A stretch of 45,851 bases of DNA, taken from a virus. The first letter of the stretch is position 1; every line of letters begins with the position of its first letter. This document shows positions 657 to 36,430 of this stretch, one piece after another. The DNA lies in IMG/VR virus record IMGVR_UViG_3300017605_000361, positions 1 to 45,851 of that record. One strand, written 5' to 3'. Below the pieces are notes generated by a model, which had not been told where the DNA came from, made no database searches, and worked only from the letters and a program-made list of their open reading frames with translations. The position numbers and the translations under genes were made by a program.

Positions 657-785
657 ATGACTGAACCCGCAATCCCACCGCCCCCACCGCCGCCAAGAGA
701 TCCGGCGACTTTCGACGATGACCGGCCGTCTGTCGGTCCTGTCGTGATCGGCCCGGAGCCGGAGACTGAGCCGGAGGAACGATGA
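657..785 (+). CDS. Small proline-rich protein (42 aa)
   Basis: A strong Shine-Dalgarno (AAGGAGG, 644-650) precedes ATG 657, and the TGA overlaps the endolysin ATG (ATGA at 782-785). The product has a run of seven prolines near its N-terminus followed by an acidic half. There is no known function. The good ribosome site and coupling to the endolysin support a real gene. AGGGACCA at 637-644 resembles part of the early-gene leader motif. Confidence 0.55.
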   Translation: MTEPAIPPPPPPPRDPATFDDDRPSVGPVVIGPEPETEPEER

Positions 786-1663
786 CCCAGAGCAAGGAGT
801 TCCCACAGTACACCTGGGTGACGCCCAAGTCGTACACCAAGGGTCGCAAGCCGGGCCAGCCGTCGGTGATCTTCATCCACACCACGGAGGGCAGCGAGGG
901 CCCAACCAGCGCTGAGAACGGCGCGAATTACGACGCGCGCCGGACGGACGGCACCAGCACGCACTTCTTCACGGACTCCAACAGCGTGGTCCAGTGCGTC
1001 CTGACGACGGACGAGTCGCACGCAACGCGGTCGCACGGCAATGACGTCGGCATCGCCATCGAGGTCTGTGGCAAGGCCGGGCAGAGCGCTGCGCAGTGGG
1101 CGGACGCCGCAAGCGCCGCAACCATCGAGCAGACCGCGCTGCTGTGCGTCAACCTCCGCAAGAAGTACGGCAAGGCTCGCTTCCCGCTGGTGAACCTCAC
1201 GCCTGCGCAACTCCGCGCCGGGCAGCACGGTTTCGCCGAGCACAAGGACGCGACGCTGGCCTGGCCGGAGGATCACGGCACGCACACCGACCCCGGCCCC
1301 AACTTCCCGTGGTCCAAGCTGTTCGCGCGGATCACCCAACTCGAAACCCCACCCGCCAAACCACCGACGGAGGAGCTACCCGTGGACGGCAAGACCTTCA
1401 ACTCACTGTTCCTGGGCGCGCTGAAAGATCCGGCCGTCCGCACCGAGGTCGGCAAGGCCATGCTGGAGGCGACCGGCTGGTCCAAGGGCTACCCCGGTCG
1501 CCAGGTCGGCTGGCACATGGACGACGAGCAGGCCATGCGCAACTTCCTGTTCGGCAAGCCGGACGAGAAGGGCCAGCAGATCCCGGACGACTCGCCGGTT
1601 TCCAAGATGGCCAAGGCCGCGCAGATCATCATCGACCAGAGCGGTGGCGTCAAGGCCAGCTGA
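782..1663 (+). CDS. Endolysin, N-acetylmuramoyl-L-alanine amidase (Amidase_2/PGRP fold)
   Basis: Predicted to cleave the amide bond between N-acetylmuramic acid and L-alanine in host peptidoglycan at lysis. Residues ~10-180 form the Amidase_2 domain: 'FIHTTEG' carries the first zinc ligand (H33), 'IAIEV' holds E95, and 'GTHTDPGPNFPW' (166-177) supplies H168 and the typical HxDPGPxFPW signature. A Pro-rich linker (~188-200) joins a C-terminal region of about 90 residues with no recognised fold, probably for wall binding. There is no signal peptide, so holin-dependent release is expected. It is followed by a terminator and four membrane/holin-type genes. The class is secure; the C-terminal role is inferred. 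Confidence 0.9.
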   Translation: MTQSKEFPQYTWVTPKSYTKGRKPGQPSVIFIHTTEGSEGPTSAENGANYDARRTDGTSTHFFTDSNSVVQCVLTTDESHATRSHGNDVGIAIEVCGKAGQSAAQWADAASAATIEQTALLCVNLRKKYGKARFPLVNLTPAQLRAGQHGFAEHKDATLAWPEDHGTHTDPGPNFPWSKLFARITQLETPPAKPPTEELPVDGKTFNSLFLGALKDPAVRTEVGKAMLEATGWSKGYPGRQVGWHMDDEQAMRNFLFGKPDEKGQQIPDDSPVSKMAKAAQIIIDQSGGVKAS

Positions 1664-2089: not shown

Positions 2090-2289
2090 GCCCATCACGT
2101 CGGCAGCGGGACCGTGACCGCGAGGAGCGGCTACGCGAGGCTGATGACGCCACGGCTGAGCTCGATGCCCGCAACGCGACCGTAGATCGCCAGCTATCCT
2201 TGGTAGACAAGCTAACGACCGGCTGGCGCAAGGTCCATCAGGTGAACCACCTGGCCCAGCTATTCAGCGAACAAGGGAGGTTGGGGTGA
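2086..2289 (+). CDS. Small charged helical protein of the lysis module (67 aa)
   Basis: ATG overlaps the preceding stop (ATGA). The N-terminal half is extremely charged (Arg/Asp/Glu) and helical. The C-terminal part 'LVDKLTTGWRKVHQVNHLA' resembles a short protein common beside lysis genes of actinophages, whose function is unknown to me. No membrane segment is present, so it probably acts in the cytoplasm with the adjacent membrane proteins. Confidence 0.65.
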   Translation: MSPSRRQRDRDREERLREADDATAELDARNATVDRQLSLVDKLTTGWRKVHQVNHLAQLFSEQGRLG

Positions 2290-2624
2290 CCTGGGCGCAC
2301 CTGGGCGACTTTGCTTTCTACGCAACAACTTTCGTCACCATCCTCTTCGCAGCGCTCTACTTCGTGACGGCTCCTTGGTGGCGAACGGTAACCGGCCGGA
2401 ACATCATGGCCGTGATGGGTTCGATGGCGGTGGCGTTCGGCTACTTCACCTGGGTGATCTCGATGGGCCACATCCCTCCCGGATTCATGCCAATGCGTGC
2501 GCTGATCTTCATTGCGATCGGTCTATCGATCGGGTGGCGTACAGTGATCTTCATCCGACACCACATCATCCGGTCGCTACGGGCCGGAAAGGAGCGAGAG
2601 CATGAGTTGGAAGACTCACGGTAA
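2286..2624 (+). CDS. Membrane protein with three predicted helices (112 aa)
   Basis: The GTG start overlaps the previous TGA. Three hydrophobic segments (~residues 8-28, 40-60 and 70-88) are followed by a basic then acidic C-terminal tail, consistent with a cytoplasmic C-terminus. It sits between the endolysin and the best holin candidate, so a second holin, antiholin or membrane accessory role is plausible. Its end overlaps the next gene by 23 nt. Confidence 0.7.
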   Translation: MTWAHLGDFAFYATTFVTILFAALYFVTAPWWRTVTGRNIMAVMGSMAVAFGYFTWVISMGHIPPGFMPMRALIFIAIGLSIGWRTVIFIRHHIIRSLRAGKEREHELEDSR

Positions 2625-2967
2625 GGCGATCATGGAGCTGCTGGGAGCGCTCGTGATGGCGGTCATCGTCGCCTACCAGACGGTGGCGCTGGACGGCGTG
2701 ACCTGGAGCGAGTGGATCATGGTCGTCATCGCGGCGGCTGGCGTGATCAACGTCTGGGCGTCCGCCAACATCAGCGGTTTCGACAAGGCCAAGCTCCTCG
2801 TCTCGGCCGTGTTCGTGGTCCTCAACCTGCTGGTCGGCTTCCTGACCGACAACCACATCAGCGGCAACGAGTGGATGCTGCTGGGCATCCAGTTCCTCTC
2901 GACGCTGGGAGTGGCTGGCGCTCCGGCGACCAAGCAGATCACCGGCCAGACCGTCATCGCAAGCTAG
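2602..2967 (+). CDS. Putative holin (121 aa)
   Basis: ATG 2602 is preceded by GGAAAGGAG. Hydrophobic segments at ~12-30, 35-55, 66-85 and ~93-108 give a small multi-pass protein of typical holin size, encoded last in the lysis block. Holins accumulate in the host membrane and open it at a set time so that endolysin reaches the wall. Assignment rests on position, size and hydrophobicity. Immediately downstream is a promoter for a non-coding RNA. Confidence 0.7.
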   Translation: MSWKTHGKAIMELLGALVMAVIVAYQTVALDGVTWSEWIMVVIAAAGVINVWASANISGFDKAKLLVSAVFVVLNLLVGFLTDNHISGNEWMLLGIQFLSTLGVAGAPATKQITGQTVIAS

Positions 2968-2971
2968 CTAG

Positions 2972-3000
2972 TAGCGGCAGTTTCCGGCGCGACGTAGACT
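2972..3000 (+). promoter_or_regulatory. Promoter: TAGCGGCA-N15-TAGACT
   Basis: TAGCGGCA (2972-2979) and TAGACT (2995-3000) are separated by 15 nt, matching the bipartite promoter found at about ten other sites. If TAGCGG is the -35 hexamer, the spacer is 17. It lies just after the holin stop and faces the ORF-less stretch 3007-3166. Confidence 0.6.
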
Positions 3001-3006
3001 GGATCT

Positions 3007-3166
3007 AGGTCAAGCCGGGGCTGAGGTCCCGGACGCGGTGTGCGCCGGTTAGTTGGTTGGTCCCTTCAGGATCGGTGGTGCACCGCTTGCCCGCCTCGCC
3101 GTGAGTGGTCCGGCAAGGAGTTGGGCAGAAGGCCGGGTGGGTCTCTCAAATCCCCACCCGGCCTTC
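3007..3166 (+). ncRNA. Candidate trans-acting antisense RNA complementary to the early-gene leader motif
   Basis: The stretch has its own promoter (-10 at 2995-3000) and ends in a strong terminator (3128-3166); I see no ORF with a ribosome site. TTGGTCCCTTCAGGAT (3057-3072) is the exact reverse complement of ATCCTGAAGGGACCAA in the leader at 6241-6256, and contains the complement of GAAGGGACCA, present before 13 gene starts. A stem of 3035-3043 with 3078-3086, extended by CCG/CGG (3045-3047 with 3073-3075), would present this segment in a 25-nt loop (3048-3072). A second stem pairs 3015-3019 with 3028-3032. The RNA and its role are inference. Alternatively, it is a decayed inverted leader, but the minus strand offers no start codon or promoter. 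Confidence 0.5.
3128..3166 (+). terminator. Strong intrinsic terminator
   Basis: A perfect 14-bp stem (GAAGGCCGGGTGGG 3128-3141 with 3153-3166) and an 11-nt loop, followed by AACATTTGTG. It would end the candidate non-coding RNA and separate the late lysis block from the early genes. Confidence 0.8.
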
Positions 3167-3186
3167 AACATTTGTGCTGGTAGTCA

Positions 3187-3222
3187 CCAATTCATACGAA
3201 CCTGGTTCTAGGTATGTATTGG
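3187..3222. repeat. Dyad operator-like element, copy 1
   Basis: A 36-bp imperfect palindrome running from CCAATTCATACGAACC to GGTATGTATTGG. Its core CAATTCATACGAA recurs at 6118-6151 and, in inverted orientation, at 7721-7742 and 13586-13608. It lies ~95 nt upstream of the first early gene. The symmetry suggests a dimeric DNA-binding regulator. Confidence 0.55.
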
Positions 3223-3238
3223 TGTCTCCGCCCCGGGG

Positions 3239-3311
3239 TAGACGAAACCATCGGCATTGGCGTACGATGTACTTGTTGGGCCGAGAGAGCGGCCCACACG
3301 AGAAGGGACCA
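3239..3311 (+). promoter_or_regulatory. Promoter, leader hairpin and GAAGGGACCA ribosome site for the DUF6011 gene
   Basis: TAGACG (3239-3244), an 18-nt spacer and TACGAT (3263-3268) preceded by TTGGCG. The transcript would begin with a 7-bp stem (TGGGCCG 3277-3283 with 3290-3296) closing an AGAGAG loop, then GAAGGGACCA (3302-3311) and ATG 3317. Confidence 0.6.
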
Positions 3312-3316
3312 AGACC

Positions 3317-4099
3317 ATGGCGCTCCGTCACTCCGCTAGCTTCCTCCAGACCTTCCACACCGCGCAGACCGCAGCCGAGCGCACTGCCGCCAGCCAGACC
3401 GAGACCCCCACCGACCACATGGACACCGACCCTGCCGCCCTGGCTTTCGTCAAGGGGCAGCGCACGGCGAGCGTGGCCACCCGTCCGGCGAGCCAGGGTG
3501 ACGGCAGCTACGAGTGCGAGATCAAGGGCCACAAGGTCCGCTGCGGTGGCCCGTTCGTCTCGGAGGCGCAGGCCAAGTGGATCATCGATATCGCCACCAC
3601 GCGGGTCATCCCGGCCGGACGGACGGCGGAGAGCGTGCTGGTCCGGCTGGAGCAGGGTTTCGCCAAGTTCGCCGGTAGCCAGTTCATCACCAACTACAAG
3701 GACCTGCCCCGGGCTACCGCCGCCATGGTCGAGGCGGTTGCGCCGGGCGCGAGCACCGAGGAGTTCCGGACCGCTGCTGCTCCGGCCGCAACCACCGAGG
3801 TGCCCGCTGGCCGGTACGCGCTGCGGACCGAGGACGGCGTGAAGTTCTACCGGCTGGACCGCCCCACCCAGGGCAAGTGGGCTGGCTACACGTTTCTCAA
3901 GGTCCAGGCGAGCGATGACCTGTTCCCCATCAAGAACCCCAACGAGAAGGCGCGGATCATCAACGCCATCGCCGAGGACGTGCTGGGCGCGGAGCGGCTT
4001 TACGGCATGGAGCTGGGCAAGTGCTCGCGCTGCGGCCGGACGCTGACGGACGAGACCAGCCGCTCGTACGGCATCGGCCCGGACTGCCGCAACAAGTAG
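3317..4099 (+). CDS. DUF6011-domain zinc-binding protein (260 aa)
   Basis: ATG 3317 follows GAAGGGACCA at the usual spacing. The C-terminal ~30 residues 'CSRCGRTLTDETSRSYGIG' plus a terminal Cys make the DUF6011 pattern (CxxC...GIGPxC), a small treble-clef or ribbon-like zinc site common in actinophage and actinobacterial proteins. Residues ~55-110 hold a conserved-looking region 'CEIKGHKVRCGGPFVSEAQ' and the middle is an Ala/Thr-rich linker. The biochemical role is unknown; nucleic-acid binding is a guess. It is a single-gene unit closed by a hairpin terminator. Confidence 0.75.
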   Translation: MALRHSASFLQTFHTAQTAAERTAASQTETPTDHMDTDPAALAFVKGQRTASVATRPASQGDGSYECEIKGHKVRCGGPFVSEAQAKWIIDIATTRVIPAGRTAESVLVRLEQGFAKFAGSQFITNYKDLPRATAAMVEAVAPGASTEEFRTAAAPAATTEVPAGRYALRTEDGVKFYRLDRPTQGKWAGYTFLKVQASDDLFPIKNPNEKARIINAIAEDVLGAERLYGMELGKCSRCGRTLTDETSRSYGIGPDCRNK

Positions 4100-4134: not shown

Positions 4135-4213
4135 GGGATGGTAAGCTGAGAATACTTTTGATGACAGCACCGGGTTTGCCGGAGGGTCGCGGGTTTGAAT
4201 CCCGTCCATTCCA
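4135..4213 (+). tRNA. tRNA-like element with abnormal D and anticodon arms
   Basis: A 7-bp acceptor stem (GGGATGG 4135-4141 with CCATTCC 4206-4212, one G-T pair) and a 5-bp T arm (GCGGG/CCCGT with loop TTTGAAT, 4189-4205) are clear. The D arm can only be drawn as GCTG/CAGC around a 16-nt loop, and the anticodon position as CCGG/CCGG with a 5-nt loop, so no anticodon can be read. It may be a degenerate tRNA, a tRNA mimic, or a tRNA 3'-end used as an attachment site. No integrase is visible to support the last. Confidence 0.4.
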
Positions 4214-4239
4214 CTCTTCCGAATGCCCCTCCGTTGGGG

Positions 4240-4286
4240 TAGGATGATCTTGTTGGGCGAGAGAGCGCCCCAAACTGAAGGGACCA
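4240..4286 (+). promoter_or_regulatory. -10 box, leader hairpin and GAAGGGACCA for the DUF2786 gene
   Basis: TAGGAT (4240-4245) follows TTGGGG. The leader folds as GGGCG (4255-4259) with CGCCC (4266-4270) around AGAGAG, then GAAGGGACCA (4277-4286). The -35 match is poor. Confidence 0.55.
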
Positions 4287-4289
4287 GTC

Positions 4290-5504
4290 ATGGTAGATCT
4301 CCAGCAGGCCGACGGAAGCATCGTCACCGCCGAGCAACAGGCCAAGATGGCCGAGAAGATCGGCAAGCTCATCGCGATGAGCGAGGACGAGTCGCTGCCC
4401 CGCGAGGCGCGCTCCAGCTACGCTGAGATGGCGGAGCGGCTGATGCGCCAGTACCGGATCGACGAGGAGAACGTCATCACGACTGGCTCCAACACCAGCA
4501 TCATCCCGGTCCGGTTCCACATCACCATCGTTGAGGGCCTGGGCAAGTGGTTCGCTGCGGAGTTCCAGGACGAGTACATGCGGATCTGGAAGGAGATCAA
4601 GAAGCACGCCGGTCTGGCCGGTCACTTCACCTGGGAGTATGACGAGGAGGGCAACGCCCGGAAGCTGGTTGCGGTCGGCTACGGCTACCAGATCGACGTC
4701 CGGCTGGCCCAGTTCCTCTGGACCTCCGCGCATCTCACGTTCGCCACCCGGATCGACACCAAGGTGGACCCCAGCCTGAGCGACCAGCTGAACTGCTACT
4801 ACATGCGCGGCTCCGGGATGGAGCGCAACGACATCGCCAACCAGCTCTGGGGCAGCGCCTACACGGACGGTCCGGCGCACGGCAAGGTCCAGAAGCTCTA
4901 CTTGGCGGAGTGCGAGGCGCGCGACGAGAAGCCGAGTGTTGGCGGTAAGGGCTTCCAGGCCAAGCGCTACCGCAAGGCGTACGCTGAGGGCTTCTGTGAC
5001 CAGTTCGGCTGGCGGCTGCGGGACGCGCGGAGCGCCATCGACGCGCAGCAGGGCGGCATCGTCCTCCACGGCCGTGAGGACCGGGTGAACGAGGCGTACT
5101 GGGCCGAGTGGCCGGACAAGGCTCCGCTGAGCGCGGAGGAGCAAGCGGCCAAGAACGCGCAGCAGGCTGCTCGCTCGGCGGAGTACTGGGCCGCCATCGA
5201 GCGCGAGCAGCGCGAGTGCCTGGAGAAGGGCAACTGCCGCGCGGCTCGCAAACGTGCGGCGGAGCGCGCTGGCCGTCCGCTGACCGAGCGTGAGCTGGAG
5301 ACGGCGCTGTGCCGGAAGCACCGGCCGTACGAGGCGACCGAGAGTGACCGTCGGCGCTGGGACCGTGAGGCGCACAACCCGGAGCGTGCCGCTGGACGGC
5401 GAGCCGGAGCTGCCGCTGCGTCCTCGGTCGAGTTCCGGCGCACGGCCGGAGAGCGCACGCACAAGGCCGGAGCGGCTGAGCAGCGCACTGCCCTGGGTCG
5501 CTGA
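4290..5504 (+). CDS. DUF2786-type protein (404 aa)
   Basis: The N-terminal ~45 residues ('KIGKLIAMSEDES...YAEMAERLMRQYRI') match the DUF2786 pattern of an Ile/Leu-rich helical pair counted in many phage and plasmid proteins. Residues ~65-240 follow as a conserved-looking alpha/beta region rich in aromatic residues, and the last ~150 residues are Ala/Glu/Arg-rich helices with Cys pairs (for example residues 310-316 and 341). The function is unknown. It stands alone between a leader of the early class and a terminator, so it is probably expressed early. Confidence 0.7.
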   Translation: MVDLQQADGSIVTAEQQAKMAEKIGKLIAMSEDESLPREARSSYAEMAERLMRQYRIDEENVITTGSNTSIIPVRFHITIVEGLGKWFAAEFQDEYMRIWKEIKKHAGLAGHFTWEYDEEGNARKLVAVGYGYQIDVRLAQFLWTSAHLTFATRIDTKVDPSLSDQLNCYYMRGSGMERNDIANQLWGSAYTDGPAHGKVQKLYLAECEARDEKPSVGGKGFQAKRYRKAYAEGFCDQFGWRLRDARSAIDAQQGGIVLHGREDRVNEAYWAEWPDKAPLSAEEQAAKNAQQAARSAEYWAAIEREQRECLEKGNCRAARKRAAERAGRPLTERELETALCRKHRPYEATESDRRRWDREAHNPERAAGRRAGAAAASSVEFRRTAGERTHKAGAAEQRTALGR

Positions 5505-6046: not shown

Positions 6047-6117
6047 AGGTAACGGAATCATAACGATGGCCGGACGCCAATATGGTGGCCGGCCATCACG
6101 TTTCCCCAGGTAGATAG

Positions 6118-6151
6118 CAATTCCTACGAACCTAGTTCTAGGTATGGATTG
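6118..6151. repeat. Dyad operator-like element, copy 2
   Basis: CAATTCCTACGAACC (6118-6132) through GGTATGGATTG (to 6151). It matches copy 1 at 3187-3222 at most positions, including the shared TTCTAGGTATG half, and lies ~110 nt upstream of the next start. The conserved spacing to a promoter suggests an operator. Confidence 0.55.
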
Positions 6152-6205: not shown

Positions 6206-6255
6206 TAGACTGATCTTGTTGGGCCGGACGGACCGGCCCCATCCTGAAGGGACCA
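6206..6255 (+). promoter_or_regulatory. -10 box, leader hairpin and GAAGGGACCA for the SAP-like gene
   Basis: TAGACT (6206-6211) follows ATGGCG. A 7-bp stem (GGGCCGG 6221-6227 with 6233-6239) with loop ACGGA is followed by ATCCTGAAGGGACCAA (6241-6256), the longest perfect match (16 nt) to the candidate antisense RNA. Confidence 0.6.
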
Positions 6256-6260
6256 AGACC

Positions 6261-6842
6261 ATGACCGCGATCATCACCCCCGCCGAGATCACCGCCCACC
6301 TGGAGAGCATGACCGCCGTTGAGCTGCGGAAGCTCGGTGCCGCGAACGGGATCAAGGGTGCCGCCAAGGGCCGCAAGTCCGACCTGGTGGCCGCCATCGC
6401 CGCCATCCGCATCGCTCAGGTCGAGGCGCTGGCTGCCGAGCAGGCCGAGAAGGACCTGGCCGAGCAGGACATGACCGAGGTCGAGGCCCACAAGGACGCG
6501 GTGGTGGACGAGGAGGCCAAGAAGGCTCGCCGGTCGCGCCGGGGCATGGTCATCGTGGCCAAGGGCACCGAAATCCACAAGTCGCAGACCTTCAAGGAGT
6601 ACGCCGAGGCGCGCGGCTTCAAGGTCACCATCACCACCGAGGTCGAGACGGTGGAGGAGGACGGCGAGGAGTACGAGATCGAGACGTACCAGGCCGTGGC
6701 CGAGCAGAAGGGCTACATCGTGGTCGGCAGCTGGATTGGCCGGGCCTGGAACTACGCCGGTGCGTACGCCGGTGTCGGCGGCAAGGCCCGCAAGGTCCGG
6801 AACCTCAAGGAGGCGCTGCGGATTCTGGACGGCCAGGCCTGA
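6261..6842 (+). CDS. SAP/Rho-N-like domain protein (193 aa)
   Basis: ATG 6261 is placed right after the leader motif. Residues ~12-50 ('LESMTAVELRKLGAANGIKG...RKSDLVAAI') resemble a SAP or Rho N-terminal helix-extended-helix, which usually binds nucleic acid. A charged helical linker (~50-95, many Glu/Lys/Arg) leads to a C-terminal alpha/beta domain with an acidic strand region (~125-145) and an aromatic motif 'GSWIGRAWNYAGAYAG'. A DNA-binding early protein is plausible; the family is not identified with certainty. Confidence 0.7.
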   Translation: MTAIITPAEITAHLESMTAVELRKLGAANGIKGAAKGRKSDLVAAIAAIRIAQVEALAAEQAEKDLAEQDMTEVEAHKDAVVDEEAKKARRSRRGMVIVAKGTEIHKSQTFKEYAEARGFKVTITTEVETVEEDGEEYEIETYQAVAEQKGYIVVGSWIGRAWNYAGAYAGVGGKARKVRNLKEALRILDGQA

Positions 6843-6872: not shown

Positions 6873-6927
6873 AGCCCATTGGCGTATAGTCATTGGTGAG
6901 GGGCAGAGCGCCCCACTGAAGGGACCA
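6861..6927 (+). promoter_or_regulatory. Promoter, leader hairpin and GAAGGGACCA
   Basis: TAGCGC (6861-6866), an 18-nt spacer and TATAGT (6885-6890) after TTGGCG. The leader stem GGGGC/GCCCC (6900-6904 with 6910-6914) precedes GAAGGGACCA (6918-6927). It serves the gene at 6933. Confidence 0.6.
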
Positions 6928-6932
6928 AGCTG

Positions 6933-7127
6933 ATGATGACCGGAGCGCGGAACATCCTGGACCGCATCGAGGCGCTGACCTACGATGACCACACGTTCGA
7001 TCTGGCGCGGGACGCGATGGGCGACGCGGAGATCCACGATGGCCTCCGCGAGAGCTACATGCGGGTCAAGGACGCCAACGGTGACGAGTTCTACGTGATC
7101 GTCAAGGCCGTGGAGCCCACGGTCTGA
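6933..7127 (+). CDS. Hypothetical small acidic protein (64 aa)
   Basis: Two ATGs (6933, 6936) follow the leader; the first is used here. The product is acidic and soluble with a beta-rich C-terminus ('EFYVIVKAVEPTV') after a helical, Asp-rich N-terminus. No family is recognised. Its own promoter, leader and terminator mark it as an independent early unit. Confidence 0.65.
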   Translation: MMTGARNILDRIEALTYDDHTFDLARDAMGDAEIHDGLRESYMRVKDANGDEFYVIVKAVEPTV

Positions 7128-7165: not shown

Positions 7166-7230
7166 CAGCGAGGACTACCGGCAGTGGAGTACGATCAGGA
7201 TCGGCCGGAGAGAGCGGCCGGAAGGGACCA
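7166..7230 (+). promoter_or_regulatory. Promoter, leader hairpin and GAAGGGACCA
   Basis: CAGCGA (7166-7171), an 18-nt spacer and TACGAT (7190-7195). The stem CGGCCG/CGGCCG (7202-7207 with 7215-7220) closes GAGAGAG and abuts GAAGGGACCA (7221-7230). It serves the gene at 7234. Confidence 0.55.
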
Positions 7231-7233
7231 GAG

Positions 7234-7452
7234 ATGACACGCGAGGAATTCATCCAGAAGCTCCAGGCGAAAGCAGCCACCCACACCGAGTGCCGCGCGG
7301 ATGATGGCGAGCACGCCTGCTACGATGGCCAGTGGACCCTCCACGGGCCGCACGACTACGAGGTCCTGAGGGCCAACTGGCGCGGAGGCGGTAAGGGCAT
7401 CGTCCACTGCCCCGGGAAGACTCCGGAGACGGTGCTGGGAGGCCAGGTATGA
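7234..7452 (+). CDS. Hypothetical protein (72 aa)
   Basis: ATG 7234 follows the leader directly. The product contains three Cys and several His residues ('HTECRADDGEHACYDGQW' and a C-terminal 'HCPG'), an arrangement that could bind zinc. There is no membrane segment. Its stop overlaps the next start (ATGA), so the pair is translationally coupled. No family is recognised. Confidence 0.65.
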   Translation: MTREEFIQKLQAKAATHTECRADDGEHACYDGQWTLHGPHDYEVLRANWRGGGKGIVHCPGKTPETVLGGQV

Positions 7453-7699: not shown

Positions 7700-7751
7700 T
7701 TGACCTAGAGCAATGGCTACCTACTTAATTCGTAGGAATTGGAAGGGACCA
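7700..7751 (+). promoter_or_regulatory. TTGACC promoter overlapped by dyad element copy 3, with GAAGGGACCA
   Basis: TTGACC (7700-7705) and TACTTA (7722-7727) are spaced by 16 nt, close to a housekeeping-type promoter and unlike the TAGCGGCA class. The dyad element (7721-7742, inverse of CCAATTCCTACGAA) covers the -10, so a bound protein should block transcription. GAAGGGACCA is at 7742-7751, without a leader hairpin. Confidence 0.5.
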
Positions 7752-7756
7752 GGCAA

Positions 7757-8563
7757 ATGGCGACCACCACTGCCAACAAGCACGGACTCCGCGCCGCAGC
7801 GACGGAGCGACGCAACCGGCACGCCCAGCGCACTCCGCTGCCGCCCAAGCCGGGCGTGGTCGAGGAGGCGCGTGAGGCCATCGAGGAGGCGCAGGCCCTT
7901 CTCGTGGACGCTGCCCAGTCGGACGACCGGAGCCACAGCAAGGCCCAGGCGTTCGCTGAGAAGGCCATAGCGGCCAAATGGGATGTGTCTTTGGACGCCT
8001 CCGGGCACGGCGTGGAGCTAACCGCGACGCGCGGAGCCGAGACCATCGTCCAGGCGTGGTCGGACGGCGTGTGGCAGTACCCTGCCAGCTTCTACGCGCA
8101 CGGCGACCGGAACACCAAGCCGCGCAACGCCTCCGGGGCGGCCAAGCTCCTCCTCCGCTCGCCGGAGGACGCTGCGGCGGAGGCGGGCAAGGTGGCGTCC
8201 AACCGGCACTTCCGCAAGTCGGAGCCCAAGGACATCGTGGAGAAGCTGGAGGTGGCCCAGAAGCACCTCCCGTTCGATCCGGCCCTTGCGCCGGATGAGA
8301 TGGTGCTGGCGATGCTGACCGGCCAGGCGCTCCAGTGGTACAACCGGCTCAGCCGGGGCACCGAGTCGGCCATCGTGGGCCGGAAGGGCGCGCGGATGAG
8401 TCTGACTGCGAGCGGCGAGCGCGTGGTGACGTTCTGCTGCCCGGCGACCGGTTACCGGTCCTGCCTCGTGACGGCCATCCTCAAGGTGGGTCGCGGACAC
8501 CGCCGGACCAAGGGCCAGAGTGACGCGCTGGGCGGCACCGACGCGGTTGAGTTGGAGGACTGA
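7757..8563 (+). CDS. Hypothetical early protein (268 aa)
   Basis: ATG 7757 lies 5 nt after the leader motif. The N-terminal ~50 residues are basic and disordered-looking, followed by an Ala/Glu-rich helix (~38-75) and an alpha/beta region with beta strands around 'ETIVQAWSDGVWQYPASFY'. Near the C-terminus 'RVVTFCCPATGYRSCLVTAIL' holds three Cys. I do not recognise a family. It is the first gene of a four-gene unit extending to the terminator at 9308 and is probably controlled by the operator-like element upstream. Confidence 0.65.
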   Translation: MATTTANKHGLRAAATERRNRHAQRTPLPPKPGVVEEAREAIEEAQALLVDAAQSDDRSHSKAQAFAEKAIAAKWDVSLDASGHGVELTATRGAETIVQAWSDGVWQYPASFYAHGDRNTKPRNASGAAKLLLRSPEDAAAEAGKVASNRHFRKSEPKDIVEKLEVAQKHLPFDPALAPDEMVLAMLTGQALQWYNRLSRGTESAIVGRKGARMSLTASGERVVTFCCPATGYRSCLVTAILKVGRGHRRTKGQSDALGGTDAVELED

Positions 8564-9345: not shown

Positions 9346-9396
9346 GGCGTATGGTAATTGTAGTGGGGCGAGAGAGCGCCCCGGATGAAGGGACCA
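9326..9396 (+). promoter_or_regulatory. Promoter, leader hairpin and GAAGGGACCA for the SpdB-like gene
   Basis: TAGACG (9326-9331, in the terminator loop), an 18-nt spacer and TATGGT (9350-9355) after TTGGCG. The stem GGGGCG/CGCCCC (9365-9370 with 9377-9382) closes AGAGAG; GAAGGGACCA is at 9387-9396. Confidence 0.6.
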
Positions 9397-9900: not shown

Positions 9901-9939
9901 AATGGCGTAGAGTTGACCTTACCAACGAGGAAGGGACCA
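9884..9939 (+). promoter_or_regulatory. Promoter and GAAGGGACCA site
   Basis: TAGACG (9884-9889), an 18-nt spacer and TAGAGT (9908-9913) after ATGGCG. The leader lacks a hairpin but keeps GAAGGGACCA (9930-9939) before ATG 9945. Confidence 0.6.
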
Positions 9940-9944
9940 AGACG

Positions 9945-10217
9945 ATGGCCAAGCTCACCGCTCTCCAGCCGCTCACCGACAAGCTCTACAACGATGCCAA
10001 CAAGGCGCAGGATTACGACCGGCTGGCCGAGTCGGTGTTCCGGGGCGCTCGCGCCAAGGTCGTGCTGACCGGCGGCCAGGTCCTCCAGGGCAAGATCACC
10101 GCGATCATGAACCAGGGCTTCAACGGCCAGCAGGTCCAGATCCGCGTCACCACCAAGGGCGAGCACTTCGGCCAGATCCGCCAGGCGCGGATCGACCGGG
10201 TGCGCGTTTGGGCCTGA
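9945..10217 (+). CDS. Small basic beta-rich protein (90 aa)
   Basis: The N-terminal helix (~1-30) is followed by a strand-rich half ('KVVLTGGQVLQGKITAI', 'QQVQIRVTT', 'ARIDRVRVW') that looks like a small beta-barrel of SH3, KOW or Sm type, folds that often bind nucleic acids. No cysteines are present. The family is not recognised. It forms a single-gene early unit flanked by terminators. Confidence 0.65.
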   Translation: MAKLTALQPLTDKLYNDANKAQDYDRLAESVFRGARAKVVLTGGQVLQGKITAIMNQGFNGQQVQIRVTTKGEHFGQIRQARIDRVRVWA

Positions 10218-10252: not shown

Positions 10253-10299
10253 ATTGGCGTACAGTCAACGACGGACCAACCGAGCGACTGAAGGGACCA
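10237..10299 (+). promoter_or_regulatory. Promoter and GAAGGGACCA site
   Basis: TACCGC (10237-10242), a 17-nt spacer and TACAGT (10260-10265) after TTGGCG. There is no leader hairpin; CTGAAGGGACCAAC (10288-10301) pairs for 14 nt with the candidate antisense RNA. Confidence 0.55.
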
Positions 10300-10304
10300 A
10301 CGCG

Positions 10305-10505
10305 ATGACCAGGATCGAGATCCTCACCGAGCAGGCCAAAGGCTATGACGAGGGGATGCTGCTGGAGGCCATGGACATGGCCACGGACGCCGACGAGGTC
10401 CGGGTGCTGGAGCTGGAGCTTGACGCTCGCACCAACCCGTTCCTCAACGCCAAGACCGAGCGTTCCCTGCTCGGTGACCTGCTCGCCGGACGGAGGATCT
10501 TCTGA
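10305..10505 (+). CDS. Hypothetical acidic helical protein (66 aa)
   Basis: ATG 10305 follows the leader. The protein is short, acidic and entirely helical with a repeated Leu/Glu pattern ('VLELELDARTNPFLNAK'). It is the first gene of a run (10305-12934) that leads into the SNF2 helicase, so it may be co-transcribed with it. The function is unknown. Confidence 0.6.
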   Translation: MTRIEILTEQAKGYDEGMLLEAMDMATDADEVRVLELELDARTNPFLNAKTERSLLGDLLAGRRIF

Positions 10506-13585: not shown

Positions 13586-13619
13586 GGAACCTAGTTCGTA
13601 TGAATTGCTGAAGGGACCA
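13586..13619 (+). promoter_or_regulatory. Dyad operator-like element copy 4 with GAAGGGACCA
   Basis: 13586-13608 is the reverse complement of CAATTCATACGAAC plus flanks, as in copies 1-3, and it sits two bases before GAAGGGACCA (13610-13619). TTTACC (13580-13585) may be a -35; the -10 would fall inside the dyad. It controls the unit that starts at 13623. Confidence 0.5.
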
Positions 13620-17357: not shown

Positions 17358-17413
17358 TAGCGGCAGTGTAGACTAGTGGATTACACTGCGAGGTATAGCA
17401 ATTGAAGGGACCA
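17358..17413 (+). promoter_or_regulatory. Promoter TAGCGGCA-N16-TACACT and GAAGGGACCA
   Basis: TAGCGGCA (17358-17365) and TACACT (17382-17387); a second TAGACT sits at 17369-17374. GAAGGGACCA (17404-17413) precedes ATG 17416 by only two bases, the closest spacing seen. Confidence 0.6.
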
Positions 17414-17415
17414 GC

Positions 17416-18111
17416 ATGCGATCCGTGCTTGATATGCACGACGAGGACCTGATGTGTCACCTGGAGGAGCTGCACCCCGGTGACCTCCGGTTGAAGTTCC
17501 AGGTGGAGCCTGGCCGGACGGAGCGCTACCTTGCTGCCCCGGAGCTTTGGCGGACGTACCACGACACACTGCATCGGTTGTACCCCAACAACTACGATCA
17601 CACGCACGAGGTGGCCATGGAACGGATGGACGGTAACGTCAAGTGGAAGGACCGCCCGGAGGACATCTGGGTGATGGCTCGCGTCGGTGACGGCGACAAG
17701 GTTGCCGATGCGTTCGTCTCCGAGCAGGCTGCCCGTAAGGCAGAGGAGCGTGGTGACTACTCCTGGGGCGTGGAGGCGGTCAAGGTCACGCTGCACCGCC
17801 CGTCGCTGCAGCCGATCTACGGCGGTCCAACGCTGTTGGAGGCGCTGTGGAATGAGATGGACCGCCTCATGGAAGCGCTCATGACCGGCGAGACGGCGGA
17901 CGACAAGTGCAAGATCAAGGGCTATCACGGTGTGCCAGCTCCGTATGATGACCACCAGGCCGACTGCGAGCACTGGGACAACGGCGACCGGTACCGGGCT
18001 GAGGAGCTGGCCTGGGTGATCGCCATCGTCACCAACGCGTACGAACCATCGGTGGACAGCGTCCGCGCGGAAGCGATGCGCCGGTGGAACGAGAGCCAGG
18101 AGGCAGCATGA
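17416..18111 (+). CDS. Hypothetical protein heading the nucleotide-metabolism unit (231 aa)
   Basis: ATG 17416 follows the leader. The protein is acidic, with many His, Trp and Tyr residues and a cluster 'CKIKGYHGVPAPYDDHQADCEHW' region (Cys at ~164 and ~182, with His) that might bind a metal. It is the first of eight coupled genes that include oxidoreductases, a phosphatase, a glycosylase and a deaminase. I do not recognise it, and the context alone suggests a role in nucleotide or base chemistry. Confidence 0.6.
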   Translation: MRSVLDMHDEDLMCHLEELHPGDLRLKFQVEPGRTERYLAAPELWRTYHDTLHRLYPNNYDHTHEVAMERMDGNVKWKDRPEDIWVMARVGDGDKVADAFVSEQAARKAEERGDYSWGVEAVKVTLHRPSLQPIYGGPTLLEALWNEMDRLMEALMTGETADDKCKIKGYHGVPAPYDDHQADCEHWDNGDRYRAEELAWVIAIVTNAYEPSVDSVRAEAMRRWNESQEAA

Positions 18112-21566: not shown

Positions 21567-22108
21567 GCATGTGGAATGACAAGCTGATCGCTGCGGCACT
21601 CGACGTAGGCCGGGCGGATGTCCGGCCGATCGCCTGGGTGCCGGAGGACCGGCTGGAGCGGTTCGGTCCGATCCAATCGTCCCAGATCCAGCCCGCTTCG
21701 CTGGACGTACGGCTTGGCCCGGAGTTCATCCTCCACCCGGAGGGCACGCGCGTCATTCCCAAGTCTGACGGCTACCTCGCGCTGATGCCCGGCGACTGTG
21801 TGCTGGCATCCCTCGTGGAGGCAGTGTCCCTCAACGACACCATCGTGGCGCGAGTCGAGGGCAAGTCCACCTGGGCGCGCCAGTTCCTCACCGTCCACTC
21901 GGCCGGATTCATCGACCCAGGCTTCACCGGCGACATCACGCTGGAGCTCAAGAACGACGGCAAGGACAACCTGGTTCTGGTGCCAGGTATGCTGATCGCA
22001 CAGATCAGCTTCCAGTGGCTAGCGGCACCGGCACAGCGCCCGTACGGTAGCGAGGGACTGGACTCGCACTACCAGTATCAGAAGGGACCAAACGAGTCGT
22101 ATGCGTAG
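21563..22108 (+). CDS. dcd: dCTP deaminase (181 aa)
   Basis: Converts dCTP to dUTP, feeding dUMP to the thymidylate synthase ThyX encoded 5 kb downstream. The signature 'GKSTWARQ' (100-107), 'VHSAGFIDPGF' and 'DITLEL' with catalytic E128 are intact, and 'LVPGMLIAQISF' completes the jelly-roll core. It could be mono- or bifunctional (with dUTPase activity); no separate dUTPase is visible in the window, which would favour the latter. A leader motif and a promoter for the next gene lie inside its 3' end. Confidence 0.85.
   Translation: MSMWNDKLIAAALDVGRADVRPIAWVPEDRLERFGPIQSSQIQPASLDVRLGPEFILHPEGTRVIPKSDGYLALMPGDCVLASLVEAVSLNDTIVARVEGKSTWARQFLTVHSAGFIDPGFTGDITLELKNDGKDNLVLVPGMLIAQISFQWLAAPAQRPYGSEGLDSHYQYQKGPNESYA
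22020..22090 (+). promoter_or_regulatory. Internal promoter TAGCGGCA-N15-TACGGT and GAAGGGACCA within dcd
   Basis: TAGCGGCA (22020-22027) and TACGGT (22043-22048) are spaced as elsewhere, and GAAGGGACCA lies at 22081-22090, 10 nt before ATG 22101. The elements are embedded in the coding sequence of dcd, so chance is possible, but all three occurring in order argues for an internal start. Confidence 0.45.
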
Positions 22109-22298
22109 CGGATGGGCGCTTGTCCTCGGTGAGCGGACATTGCTGGCCATGACGTGCTGGCGGTGCGGGAAGTTGTTGCCCGGCAACAAGTTCCACTACC
22201 ACGTCCGTAACAACCGGGACAAGCGCCCATACGTCGATCGCCGCTGTAGCAACTGCAAGTGGGGCCTGAGGGTCAAAGGGGTGAAGGTCAATGGGTGA
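22101..22298 (+). CDS. Small zinc-ribbon protein (65 aa)
   Basis: ATG 22101 follows GAAGGGACCA and overlaps the end of dcd by 8 nt. A four-Cys site 'CWRCGK' and 'CSNCK' marks a zinc ribbon. An alternative start at ATG 22149 would begin directly before it. The protein is basic, which fits nucleic-acid binding. It is encoded just before the DNA polymerase genes. Confidence 0.6.
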   Translation: MRSGWALVLGERTLLAMTCWRCGKLLPGNKFHYHVRNNRDKRPYVDRRCSNCKWGLRVKGVKVNG

Positions 22299-26154: not shown

Positions 26155-26204
26155 TAGCGGCAGAAGTTTCCGATCCGATATCATCAGGGCCGAAGGAGGG
26201 ACCA
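26155..26204 (+). promoter_or_regulatory. Promoter TAGCGGCA-N16-TATCAT with variant leader
   Basis: TAGCGGCA (26155-26162) and TATCAT (26179-26184). The ribosome site is GAAGGAGGGACCA (26192-26204), the leader motif with a three-base insertion that improves the Shine-Dalgarno, immediately before ATG 26205. Confidence 0.6.
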
Positions 26205-34665: not shown

Positions 34666-34731
34666 CGGCAGAAACCAACGGCGCGAGACGATAGCTACAC
34701 ACGAGGCGGACAGACCGCCGAGAAGGGACCA
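34663..34731 (+). promoter_or_regulatory. Promoter TAGCGGCA-N16-GACGAT, leader hairpin, GAAGGGACCA
   Basis: TAGCGGCA (34663-34670) overlaps the upstream TAG stop; GACGAT (34687-34692) is 16 nt on. The stem GGCGG/CCGCC (34705-34709 with 34715-34719) precedes GAAGGGACCA (34722-34731). Confidence 0.55.
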
Positions 34732-34733
34732 AC

Positions 34734-35090
34734 GTGAGCGACTTCCTCAACGCATTCATGCAGAACCTCCAGGGGTCCGGCATCCCGGTCAAGCTGGTCG
34801 ATGTCTCGCACCTGTACGACCCGCAGATGATCACCAGCGCCGACCTCCGCGAGATGACGGCAGACGACTTCCAGGGCATGGCGCTGGAGTACACGGCGGC
34901 GGCCCACAACGCGCTGATGCGCGAGGAGTACGGCAAGGCCAAGTACTTCCAGACCCAGGCCACGCTCTGGGGCCTGTCGGCCGAGAAGCGGCGCCAGTCG
35001 GACGAGCGTTCCAACGACGCGGAGCGCGAGCAGCCGGACCTGCCCGAGAAGGACGCCAGTAGCGCCGGGGAGCCGCAGCCGGTAAGCTGA
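34734..35090 (+). CDS. Hypothetical protein (118 aa)
   Basis: GTG 34734 is two bases after the leader motif. A helical protein with an acidic, disordered C-terminus (~88-118). 'LVDVSHLYDPQMITSADLREM' and 'AAAHNALMREEYGKAKYFQ' suggest a helical bundle. No family is recognised. The next promoter overlaps its 3' end. Confidence 0.6.
   Translation: MSDFLNAFMQNLQGSGIPVKLVDVSHLYDPQMITSADLREMTADDFQGMALEYTAAAHNALMREEYGKAKYFQTQATLWGLSAEKRRQSDERSNDAEREQPDLPEKDASSAGEPQPVS
35060..35088 (+). promoter_or_regulatory. Promoter TAGCGCCG-N15-TAAGCT
   Basis: TAGCGCCG (35060-35067) and TAAGCT (35083-35088) fit the phage promoter spacing exactly. The predicted transcript starts at ~35095, at the head of a structured stretch without a convincing gene. 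Confidence 0.5.
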
Positions 35091-35094
35091 GCGA

Positions 35095-35476
35095 CCGTGC
35101 GGTGGACGCAACTGCCCCCAGAGGCGTCCACCGCCAACAATCCAGCCGAACCAATGACCGCCATCGGAGGCGAGGCTGGCGAGTCCTCCCCTGGACACGT
35201 CAGGAGACGGGAAGTTACCAACCGGACTTGGCGGTTGGGGGCGTCACTGGGAGTGCGAGCGTACGGCGCATGGCCAGCGAGTGGGGTTCAAGGGCCCACA
35301 GACGTACGTTGGGTGGGCATCGGCCGATCGGCCCACCCGGCTCAAGCAACGGCGCGCGCAGCGTCGTGGAGTCGTACCGTCACACGACCCCCGTGACGGT
35401 CTTGGCTTCAAGGTTGGGCCCGACCGGCTGCGAAGCGGTGGTGTCCGGGGTTTCGCGGCACCGGCTCCACCGCGCT
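35095..35476 (+). ncRNA. Structured, probably non-coding transcript preceding the tRNA-like gene
   Basis: Stable inverted repeats follow one another: a 5'-end stem GCGGTGGACGC with GCGTCCACCGC (~35099-35134); GGGTGGGC/GCCCACCC (35311-35318 with 35331-35338); ACCGTCAC/GTGACGGT (35376-35383 with 35393-35400); and GCGGTGG/CCACCGC (35435-35441 with 35467-35473). Promoter 35060-35088 drives it. One open frame (35097-35396, GTG, 99 residues) would be leaderless; its Trp/Arg/Pro-rich product looks like translated non-coding DNA. No known RNA family is recognised. Confidence 0.4.
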
Positions 35477-35554
35477 GGGGCAGTAGCTCAACGGAAGAGC
35501 CCGTCAGGCCTTGGCCAGGGCGGTGTGTAGCAGGTTCAATTCCTGCCTGCCCCT
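35477..35554 (+). tRNA. tRNA-like gene with an expanded anticodon region
   Basis: A 7-bp acceptor (GGGGCAG 35477-35483 with CTGCCCC 35547-35553), a D arm (GCTC/GAGC with loop AACGGAA) and a T arm (GCAGG/CCTGC with loop TTCAATT) are all canonical. The best anticodon stem, CCGTC/GGCGG (35501-35505 with 35519-35523), encloses 13 nt instead of 7, containing GGCCTTGGCC. I cannot read an anticodon with a T33 and purine 37, so the isotype is undetermined. CCA is not encoded. Confidence 0.6.
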
Positions 35555-35847
35555 CGCTCGGAATTGCATGCTGAGCACAAATCCATCCGTACCACAGCAG
35601 GCCGACACTCAGACGAAAAGGTAATCACTGGGTTTCAGGCGAGTCGCACTGCGGAGCGGCTTGCGCCAAGCAGAGTGAGTGTGGTCCTAAGCCTGCCTGT
35701 TGTGATCGGCTGGTCGCCATGTCGGGGCGTGTACCGGCGCTCGTGGTCCGGGGTGTTGGTGGTGCCGGGTGAGCCGGTGTTCCAAGCAATCCATGACCTG
35801 CCCACCCCGGACCGCCTAGCCCATCCTCTCCAAAGGAAAGGCAACAC
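35555..35847. other. Non-coding stretch; nothing convincing seen
   Basis: The 293 bp between the tRNA-like gene and the secreted-protein gene hold one open frame (35564-35851) without a ribosome site or credible composition. The last 20 bases supply AAAGGAAAGG, the ribosome site for the next gene. No promoter of the phage class was found. Confidence 0.5.
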
Positions 35848-36243
35848 ATGAAGAAGATCCTGGCCGCACTCGCGCTCGCCGTCGGGCTGACCGGCGTCAG
35901 CCTGCTTAACGTCACTCCGGCGCTCGCCGCGCACGTCGGCCCGGCCGGTTACGTGACGTTCTATGACGGCTGCACCGGCGGCAGCTCCAGCAACCACACC
36001 GTGGGATACTGCGGCGCGGCCTGGCCGATCCCGCAGAGCCAGCTGGGGCAGGGCGTCTGCCACAACGTGCCGACCGGCAGCAACGACCGGTTCAGTGCGT
36101 TCGACAACAACACCGGCCGCGACATCGTGGTCTACACCAACGCCAACTGCTCTTCGTCCGGCAGCAACGCGCGGCTGTACGCCGGTACGATGACCGGCCA
36201 GCTGGCGACGGGGTGGAACAACACCATCAGCTCCTACTCCTGA
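35848..36243 (+). CDS. Secreted small protein, peptidase-inhibitor I36-like (131 aa)
   Basis: A classical signal peptide (residues 1-27: 'MKK', hydrophobic core, then 'ALA' before 'AHV') directs export through Sec. The mature ~104 residues have four Cys (two likely disulphides) and 'YDGCTGGSSS', 'GVCHNVPTGSNDRFSAFDN' and 'VVYTNANC', the spacing of beta/gamma-crystallin-like actinobacterial inhibitors such as family I36. Roles could be protecting virions or host cells from proteases, or altering the host surface. ATG 35848 has AAAGGAAAGG upstream. Confidence 0.65.
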   Translation: MKKILAALALAVGLTGVSLLNVTPALAAHVGPAGYVTFYDGCTGGSSSNHTVGYCGAAWPIPQSQLGQGVCHNVPTGSNDRFSAFDNNTGRDIVVYTNANCSSSGSNARLYAGTMTGQLATGWNNTISSYS

Positions 36244-36374: not shown

Positions 36375-36430
36375 TAGCGGCAACGTATGATGAGAGAGAT
36401 CATCGTTGTCAGGACCTCTGAAAGGGACCA
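36375..36430 (+). promoter_or_regulatory. TAGCGGCA element, AGAGAG hairpin and variant leader
   Basis: TAGCGGCA (36375-36382) with GATCAT (36398-36403, N15) or TATGAT (36386-36391) as -10. GATGA/TCATC (36389-36393 with 36400-36404) closes GAGAGA, an AT-rich version of the leader hairpin, though a -10 here would leave it untranscribed. AAAGGGACCA (36421-36430) abuts ATG 36431. Confidence 0.45.

Follow-up and report, generated by a model that had tools for sequence, protein, structure and literature searches.

Covariation in eight uncultivated phages suggests one antisense RNA that may tune or shut off a set of tagged early genes

Can one short phage RNA be directed at the ribosome sites of a whole set of early genes? 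This question is raised by a stretch without a conserved open reading frame (ORF) between the lysis genes and the first early gene (at 3317, DUF6011) of the window, by which we mean the whole 45.9-kb uncultivated virus record analysed here. A tailed phage is marked by the terminase, portal and DNA replication genes of the window, and the portal protein is ~29-37% identical to those of Gordonia, Nocardia, Microbacterium, Mycobacterium and Micrococcus phages; we therefore regard it as an actinophage without a close named relative. A first-pass annotation had proposed that the stretch encodes an antisense RNA able to pair, through a loop, with the leaders of more than a dozen early genes.

The features of the locus and of its putative targets are collected in Table 1. 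The promoter, the terminator and the lack of an ORF on which that proposal was built were all borne out. The promoter elements are present in all relatives with a spacing of 17-18 bp, a long GGCC-type terminator hairpin recurs in all of them with differing internal sequence, and the element is strongly folded (-92.3 kcal/mol for the whole RNA; z = -4.6, or -4.58 unrounded, against shuffles). Conserved promoter spacing together with a terminator hairpin, and no conserved ORF, in eight phages is what we required of a discrete transcription unit. The antisense hairpin is formed by a 16-bp stem with an open top bearing GGTTGGTCCCTTCAG. The 16-mer TTGGTCCCTTCAGGAT (3057-3072) does lie in the apical loop, but the clean 25-nt loop first predicted did not hold: the open region, ~19 nt long (3051-3069), contains three weak pairs of its own, and the last bases of the 16-mer (3070-3072) belong to the stem. 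The seed is predicted to be mostly unpaired in four phages (0.69-0.78 in the window, G001, G002 and G004) and partly paired, with lower values, in G003 and G005; with the covariation of the stem described below, this meets the expectation of a conserved fold with an unpaired seed.

Table 1. Positions of the lysis genes, the putative RNA element and the tagged leaders in the window
Feature	Position	Strand	Remark
Amidase gene	782-1663		Lysis gene upstream of the RNA element
Phage_holin_2 protein gene	2286-2624		Lysis gene, neighbour of 2602-2967
Small holin-like protein gene	2602-2967	+	No Pfam hit; upstream of the RNA; synteny anchor in relatives
Predicted promoter of the RNA	2972-3000	+	TAGCGGCA at 2972-2979, -10 TAGACT at 2995-3000; 17 bp from TAGCGG to TAGACT
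Candidate antisense small RNA	3007-3174	+	Ends inferred from the -10 site (5') and the terminator (3')
5' hairpin	3015-3032	+	7 bp; missing in some relatives
Antisense hairpin	3035-3086	+	Stem 3035-3050 with 3070-3086; apical region 3051-3069
Seed GGTTGGTCCCTTCAG	3055-3069	+	Complementary to the leader motif CTGAAGGGACCAA
Middle hairpin	3088-3127	+	CCCG...CGGG in most relatives
Terminator hairpin	3128-3166	+	14 bp, 3128-3141 with 3153-3166
Tag GAAGGGACCA of gene 3317-4099	3302-3311	+	DUF6011
Tag of gene 4290-5504	4277-4286	+	DUF2786; T in the window, C in the orthologue of the nearest relative
Tag of gene 6261-6842	6241-6256	+	Rho_N domain; 16-nt perfect loop complement
Tag of gene 6933-7127	6918-6927	+	
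Tag of gene 7234-7452	7221-7230	+	
Tag of gene 7757-8563	7742-7751	+	
Tag of gene 9398/9401-9859	9387-9396	+	Weak DUF2637 match
Tag of gene 9945-10217	9930-9939	+	
Tag of gene 10305-10505	10288-10301	+	14-nt loop complement
Tag of 114-codon ORF starting ~13623	13610-13619	+	
Tag of gene 17416-18111	17404-17413	+	
Weaker leader of possible ORF 22101-22298 (65 aa)	22081-22090	+	Tag ~10 nt before the ORF
Variant leader GGAGGGACCA of gene starting 26205	26195-26204	+	A to G, still pairs with loop U
Tag of gene 34734-35090	34722-34731	+	
Variant (fourteenth) leader AAAGGGACCA of gene 36431/36434-36703	36421-36430	+	

The same element was found in seven further phages, all of them uncultivated, and one ninth contig ends inside it. 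The relatives were found via the holin-like protein, a promoter-plus-loop pattern and the first early protein, and in them the element follows the holin-like gene or immediately precedes the first early gene. The first pattern (TAGCGGCA-N46-76-GGTTGGTCCCTT) matched seven viral contigs, six of which were true members, and a second matched four, all true; pattern scans of AGCGGCA plus the loop recovered the family. The element measures 117-154 nt in the relatives and 117-168 nt across the eight phages, with indels, and these differing lengths break any shared reading frame. Among viral contigs, the exact 16-mer gave ten unrelated chance matches, and a scan with GGTTGGTCCCTTCRGR gave 37, which are real only where the promoter and terminator architecture is present; L080 was rejected as a chance pattern match without this architecture or tags, and the element is missing in L085 and L088. 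A search of 85,000 prokaryote genomes with the holin-like protein was empty, and the first pattern found in them only 10 scattered matches in unrelated taxa, about the chance number and none a member; there is thus no sign of a prophage form. The holin-like gene is also absent from named phages.

Most of the element has been rewritten between these phages, and the stem has been kept. All 8 of the 8 outer stem pairs have changed on both sides (7 distinct stem sequences), all 56 of 56 cells are paired, and the covariation score is 1.06 versus 0.25 in shuffles, none of 500 reaching it; a one-base slide of the stem partner destroys the covariation. Atop the stem, the 12 bases GGYTGGTCCCTT are nearly invariant in the eight phages, GGYUGGUCCCUU in the loop being retained while the stem around it changes. 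The stem arms were picked from predicted folds and the percentage paired is therefore favoured, but this choice does not account for how many compensatory changes have occurred in a stem found in the same place in every phage. Judged by these substitutions, the element is under selection as RNA.

The complementarity of the loop to the leaders was also as proposed, with the perfect 16-nt and the 14-nt complements at the predicted positions before the genes at 6261 and 10305 and further leaders complementary over 11-13 nt; in all, exact complementarity to 13 leaders spans 10-16 nt. The motif GAAGGGACCA occurs 13 times on the plus strand, 12 copies lying 2-6 nt ahead of an ORF start codon and the one at 22081 ~10 nt ahead of a possible 65-aa ORF, and once on the minus strand, as the reversed copy at 3058-3067. 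A minus-strand gene starting past this reversed tag was ruled out, there being no start codon at the right distance. With one mismatch allowed, 18 sites were found versus 2.8 expected, a number that none of 100 shuffles reached. Predicted duplexes of the RNA with the 13 tagged leaders reach -25 to -39 kcal/mol, versus a mean of -18 for 38 other gene starts. The targets, with the leader consensus CTGAAGGGACCAA, are spread over 3.3 to 36.4 kb; their leaders are only moderately accessible (0.26-0.83 unpaired) and bear upstream hairpins of their own. Because the anti-Shine-Dalgarno sequence is matched by the AAGG of the tag and not by its ACC, the tag exceeds the needs of the ribosome.

We collected 65 tagged leaders from the eight phages and compared them with the loops. 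Directly before GAAGGGACC, 7 of the 13 window leaders have T and none has C; 32 of the 40 leaders of G001, G002, G003, G004 and G008 have C there, and 6 of the 10 from G007 have A. The loop faces these bases with A, G and U, respectively. At the second position past the core, 8 of 10 G007 leaders have G, and the loop has C there in G007 and U, which pairs with both A and G, in the others. For Watson-Crick pairs at the -2 position, the true assignment of loops to phages outscores all others among the 336 distinct ones (P = 0.003, the minimum attainable); at this base, the leader fits its own RNA in 45 of 63 cases versus 26 in shuffles. In five orthologous genes (62-95% identical), the leader has T in the window and C in G001, its nearest relative, and the loop A versus G. 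The tagged genes within a genome are not paralogues, so the sites were not copied along with the genes. Among promoter-associated leaders with one core mismatch, 12 of 14 changes keep a G-U pair, which is partly what a ribosome site would favour too. The loop of G005 (GGUUGGUCCCUUUCCCC) fits its leaders less well, and the covariation of loop and leaders as a whole depends for the most part on a single three-state position and on few independent loop changes. Relatives in which the leader motif changes while the loop does not would have refuted the first-pass annotation; the opposite was seen in seven relatives, where both change together, as is expected if the seed co-evolves with its target sites. 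Thus, this co-change and the compensatory changes in the stem together give good support to a trans-acting antisense RNA aimed at the tagged leaders.

Sequence comparison by itself demonstrates a predicted promoter, a covarying hairpin with an open seed loop, a terminator and a seed that co-evolves with the tags of 12-14 mostly early genes, and the joint change of loop and tags in eight phages suggests one RNA that may tune or shut off the gene set. We consider it probable that ~3007-3174 is the gene of a trans-acting antisense RNA that is made late, hides ribosome sites and represses the tagged early genes, although its expression, the repression and the timing are inferred, no transcript having been seen and no RNA data existing for these uncultivated phages. 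The loop would pair with the tag (GAAGGGACCA plus flanks) in the mRNA leader and hide the Shine-Dalgarno core AAGGG, and translation of all tagged genes would be blocked at once, with mRNA decay probably hastened too. A block of initiation would be the natural outcome, since the pairing covers AAGGG, the only part that pairs well with the anti-Shine-Dalgarno sequence, 2-6 nt before the start codon. The RNA may be made late in two ways, by initiation at its own promoter and as the 3'-terminal part of the late transcript, and would then act as a developmental switch that shuts down early gene expression; this timing is inferred because its gene stands at the end of the lysis (late) genes without an intervening terminator, the hairpin at 3128-3166 being the first terminator after the lysis genes.

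Covariation supports the pairing alone and not its effect. The RNA might therefore activate, stabilise or time the messages, with the leaders' own upstream hairpins being remodelled, or the tags might serve as a sponge, in either case without repression. We judge this unlikely, because the paired stretch covers the Shine-Dalgarno core just before the start codon and because host small RNAs whose C-rich loops act at sites of this kind are repressors (B11, PMC10470900).

Concerted change of all copies would also be expected from a protein. The tag could then be a site for a DNA- or RNA-binding protein, 3058-3067 just another such site and the covariation a trace of shifting protein specificity, for which the stoperators of cluster A, asymmetric 13-bp sites with a role in transcription regulation (PMC3203893), and the lack of the antisense RNA in other tag-bearing phages may be cited. 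However, the reversed copy sits in the loop of a compensated stem in 8 of 8 phages and a DNA site needs no stem; each genome has a single reversed exact core, with G001 alone having a further reversed match; the other copies lie mostly at Shine-Dalgarno distance and in a single orientation; and the core changes in promoter-associated leaders mostly keep a G-U pair. Altogether, a protein site appears quite improbable.

Situated after the last lysis gene and before the first early gene, and with the first terminator past the lysis genes, the hairpin could also be an element acting in cis, be it an attenuator or 3' untranslated region of the late operon or the leader of gene 3317, the other matches being secondary. 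There is very little room for such a role, given that the hairpin has its own conserved promoter, that the best matches of its loop are the leaders at 6241 and 10288 and not that at 3302, and that leader bases follow the loop across the whole genome. Finally, the 8-bp core is short and one reversed copy of a common ribosome-site motif in 46 kb would alone be unremarkable, but a functionless chance match is refuted on sequence grounds by the architecture, stem covariation and matching loop that eight phages share, and we give it almost no credence.

The antisense RNA reading bears on a known class of phage sequences. The Start Associated Sequences (SAS/ESAS) of cluster K mycobacteriophages and cluster EF Microbacterium phages are multi-copy, over-conserved tags in one orientation at the ribosome sites of early and non-structural genes, often with an inverted repeat and a promoter upstream (PMC3203893, PMC7302621, PMC11373665). 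Their discoverers left open in 2011 whether RNA or protein binds them, and they have remained unexplained since. The window tags qualify as Start Associated Sequences in being repeated, over-conserved and placed in one orientation at the ribosome sites of non-structural genes; they resemble SAS in copy number, orientation and ribosome-site position and differ in consensus. The window consensus CTGAAGGGACCAA meets neither that of cluster K (GGGATAGGAGCCC) nor that of EF (GGGAAAGGACCCC); the EF consensus is close to the window's GAAGGGACCA, and the EF portal is ~31% identical to that of the window. We found no proposal of an antisense RNA for SAS/ESAS in the literature compared (PMC3203893, PMC7302621, PMC11373665), and a literature search joining such tags with small RNAs, by those words, gave no paper.

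Among SAS phages, an antisense loop was found only in cluster K1, as CTCCTATCCC in Anaya, Adephagia and Murucutumbu; LilPharaoh has CTCCTATCCC without the same local fold. The single reversed SAS of K1, already noted in 2011, sits in these three phages in the apical loop of a hairpin (CCTCCTATCC), which in Adephagia lies at the start of late transcription, in the gap separating genes 92 and 93 (PMC11373665). At the corresponding stretch, Unicorn, Bryler, Amgine and Shandong1 have a different loop of the CTCCCTTCCC type, and SAS is unchanged in Unicorn, the only one checked, despite this loop. The hairpin in the late-start gap was recorded in L060 (Anaya, 37874), L073 (Adephagia, 34686), L093 and L096 versus L091, L094, L095 and L097. 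A reversed SAS was not found in Pixie, and that of ZoeJ lies at the start of a leftward gene. With the different loops of the Unicorn-type phages and no fitting copy in Pixie and ZoeJ, cluster K was rejected in part as a general parallel. No antisense copy of the tag was found in the Microbacterium EF phages. EF phages have a ~490-nt non-coding gap with strong hairpins (L105, 10063-10549, AnnaSerena genes 46-47; L106, 10982-11478, Ajin genes 50-51), and the AnnaSerena gap loop GGGTTGGTCCCGC resembles the window seed and matches the AnnaSerena tags over only ~6 nt. That EF and most cluster K phages carry similar tags without an antisense copy counts against our reading; a tag can thus exist without such an RNA. 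Because the Unicorn-type loops differ and EF lacks a copy, the cluster K parallel offers a lead but no proof, and antisense RNA cannot explain all such tags.

Other regulatory RNAs offer partial parallels. B11/6C of mycobacteria and other actinobacteria is a structured RNA with C-rich loops that represses many mRNAs at their ribosome sites (PMC10470900). The candidate RNA would resemble it in pairing a C-rich loop at such sites of many mRNAs but differs in that B11/6C is host-encoded, with two C-rich loops and broad targets without a dedicated tag, whereas the window RNA has a single loop with UCCC. In an Rfam scan of the window with E up to 1, only the tRNA family was found and no match to 6C/B11 or c4, so that the window RNA belongs to neither family by this measure. 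The c4 RNA has one target (ant), with which it is encoded, in contrast to the dozen scattered targets sharing a tag in the window. In P1 and P7, c4 is a phage RNA with complementary stretches in loops that pairs around the ribosome site of a phage gene, and VpdS and lambda PreS are phage-encoded trans-acting regulatory RNAs active during infection (PMC12197685). The latter two differ from the window RNA in that they work with Hfq and have mostly host RNAs as targets rather than a tagged set of phage genes. An Hfq-like partner in the window, the tagged 90-aa gene at 9945-10217, was considered but is not claimed: the matches of its low-confidence model (pLDDT 62) in the PDB are mostly to Hfq/Sm folds and weak (E 0.1-0.5), and neither the other members nor named phages have a relative of the gene. 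Adephagia gp39, reported to be Hfq-like, has an ESAS (PMC11373665).

Phage antisense RNAs acting at the ribosome sites of single targets, and host RNAs with C-rich loops acting on many, are already known; a phage RNA dedicated to its own tagged regulon would be a simple post-transcriptional switch for a whole early programme. The candidate RNA is a concrete, testable partner for SAS-like tags, and an off-switch made of tag and antisense RNA would, if true, explain at least part of the SAS puzzle. It is possible, but rather doubtful on present evidence, that actinophages in general mark a set of early genes with an extended ribosome site and switch all of them off at translation through one late antisense RNA, or through the leader of the late transcript, and that this arrangement has arisen more than once, for example in cluster K1. 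In addition, loop and tag pairs of differing specificity (A-T, G-C and U-A) would be natural orthogonal parts for multi-gene control.

Further sequences of the window deserve mention. TAGCGGCA, which stands at the -35 distance in the promoter of the RNA, occurs nine times versus 0.9 expected (plus strand, 2972, 15104, 17358, 22020, 26155, 34177, 34663 and 36375; minus strand, 21457); several of the other copies precede, by 40-62 nt, tagged leaders that are not in the early cluster, some copies are too near the -10 to serve as a -35 element, and TAGCGGCA may be the regulator site of a second promoter class. A palindromic repeat around TACGAACCTAGTTCTAGG / AATTC, at ~3183-3225, 6117-6150, 7710-7742 and 13588-13608, also precedes the first early gene in relatives (L024 and L078) and looks like an operator of a phage regulator. 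Directly before a tagged gene, ~4160-4215 resembles the 3' half of a tRNA (GGGTCGCGGGTTTGAATCCCGTCCATTCC); ARAGORN calls no tRNA there, and the sequence is possibly a tRNA remnant or an attachment site. Lastly, the ~750 nt at 35090-35850 are poor in ORFs, contain a tRNA-Gln (UUG) at 35477-35555 and are followed at 35848 by the gene of a small secreted-looking protein.
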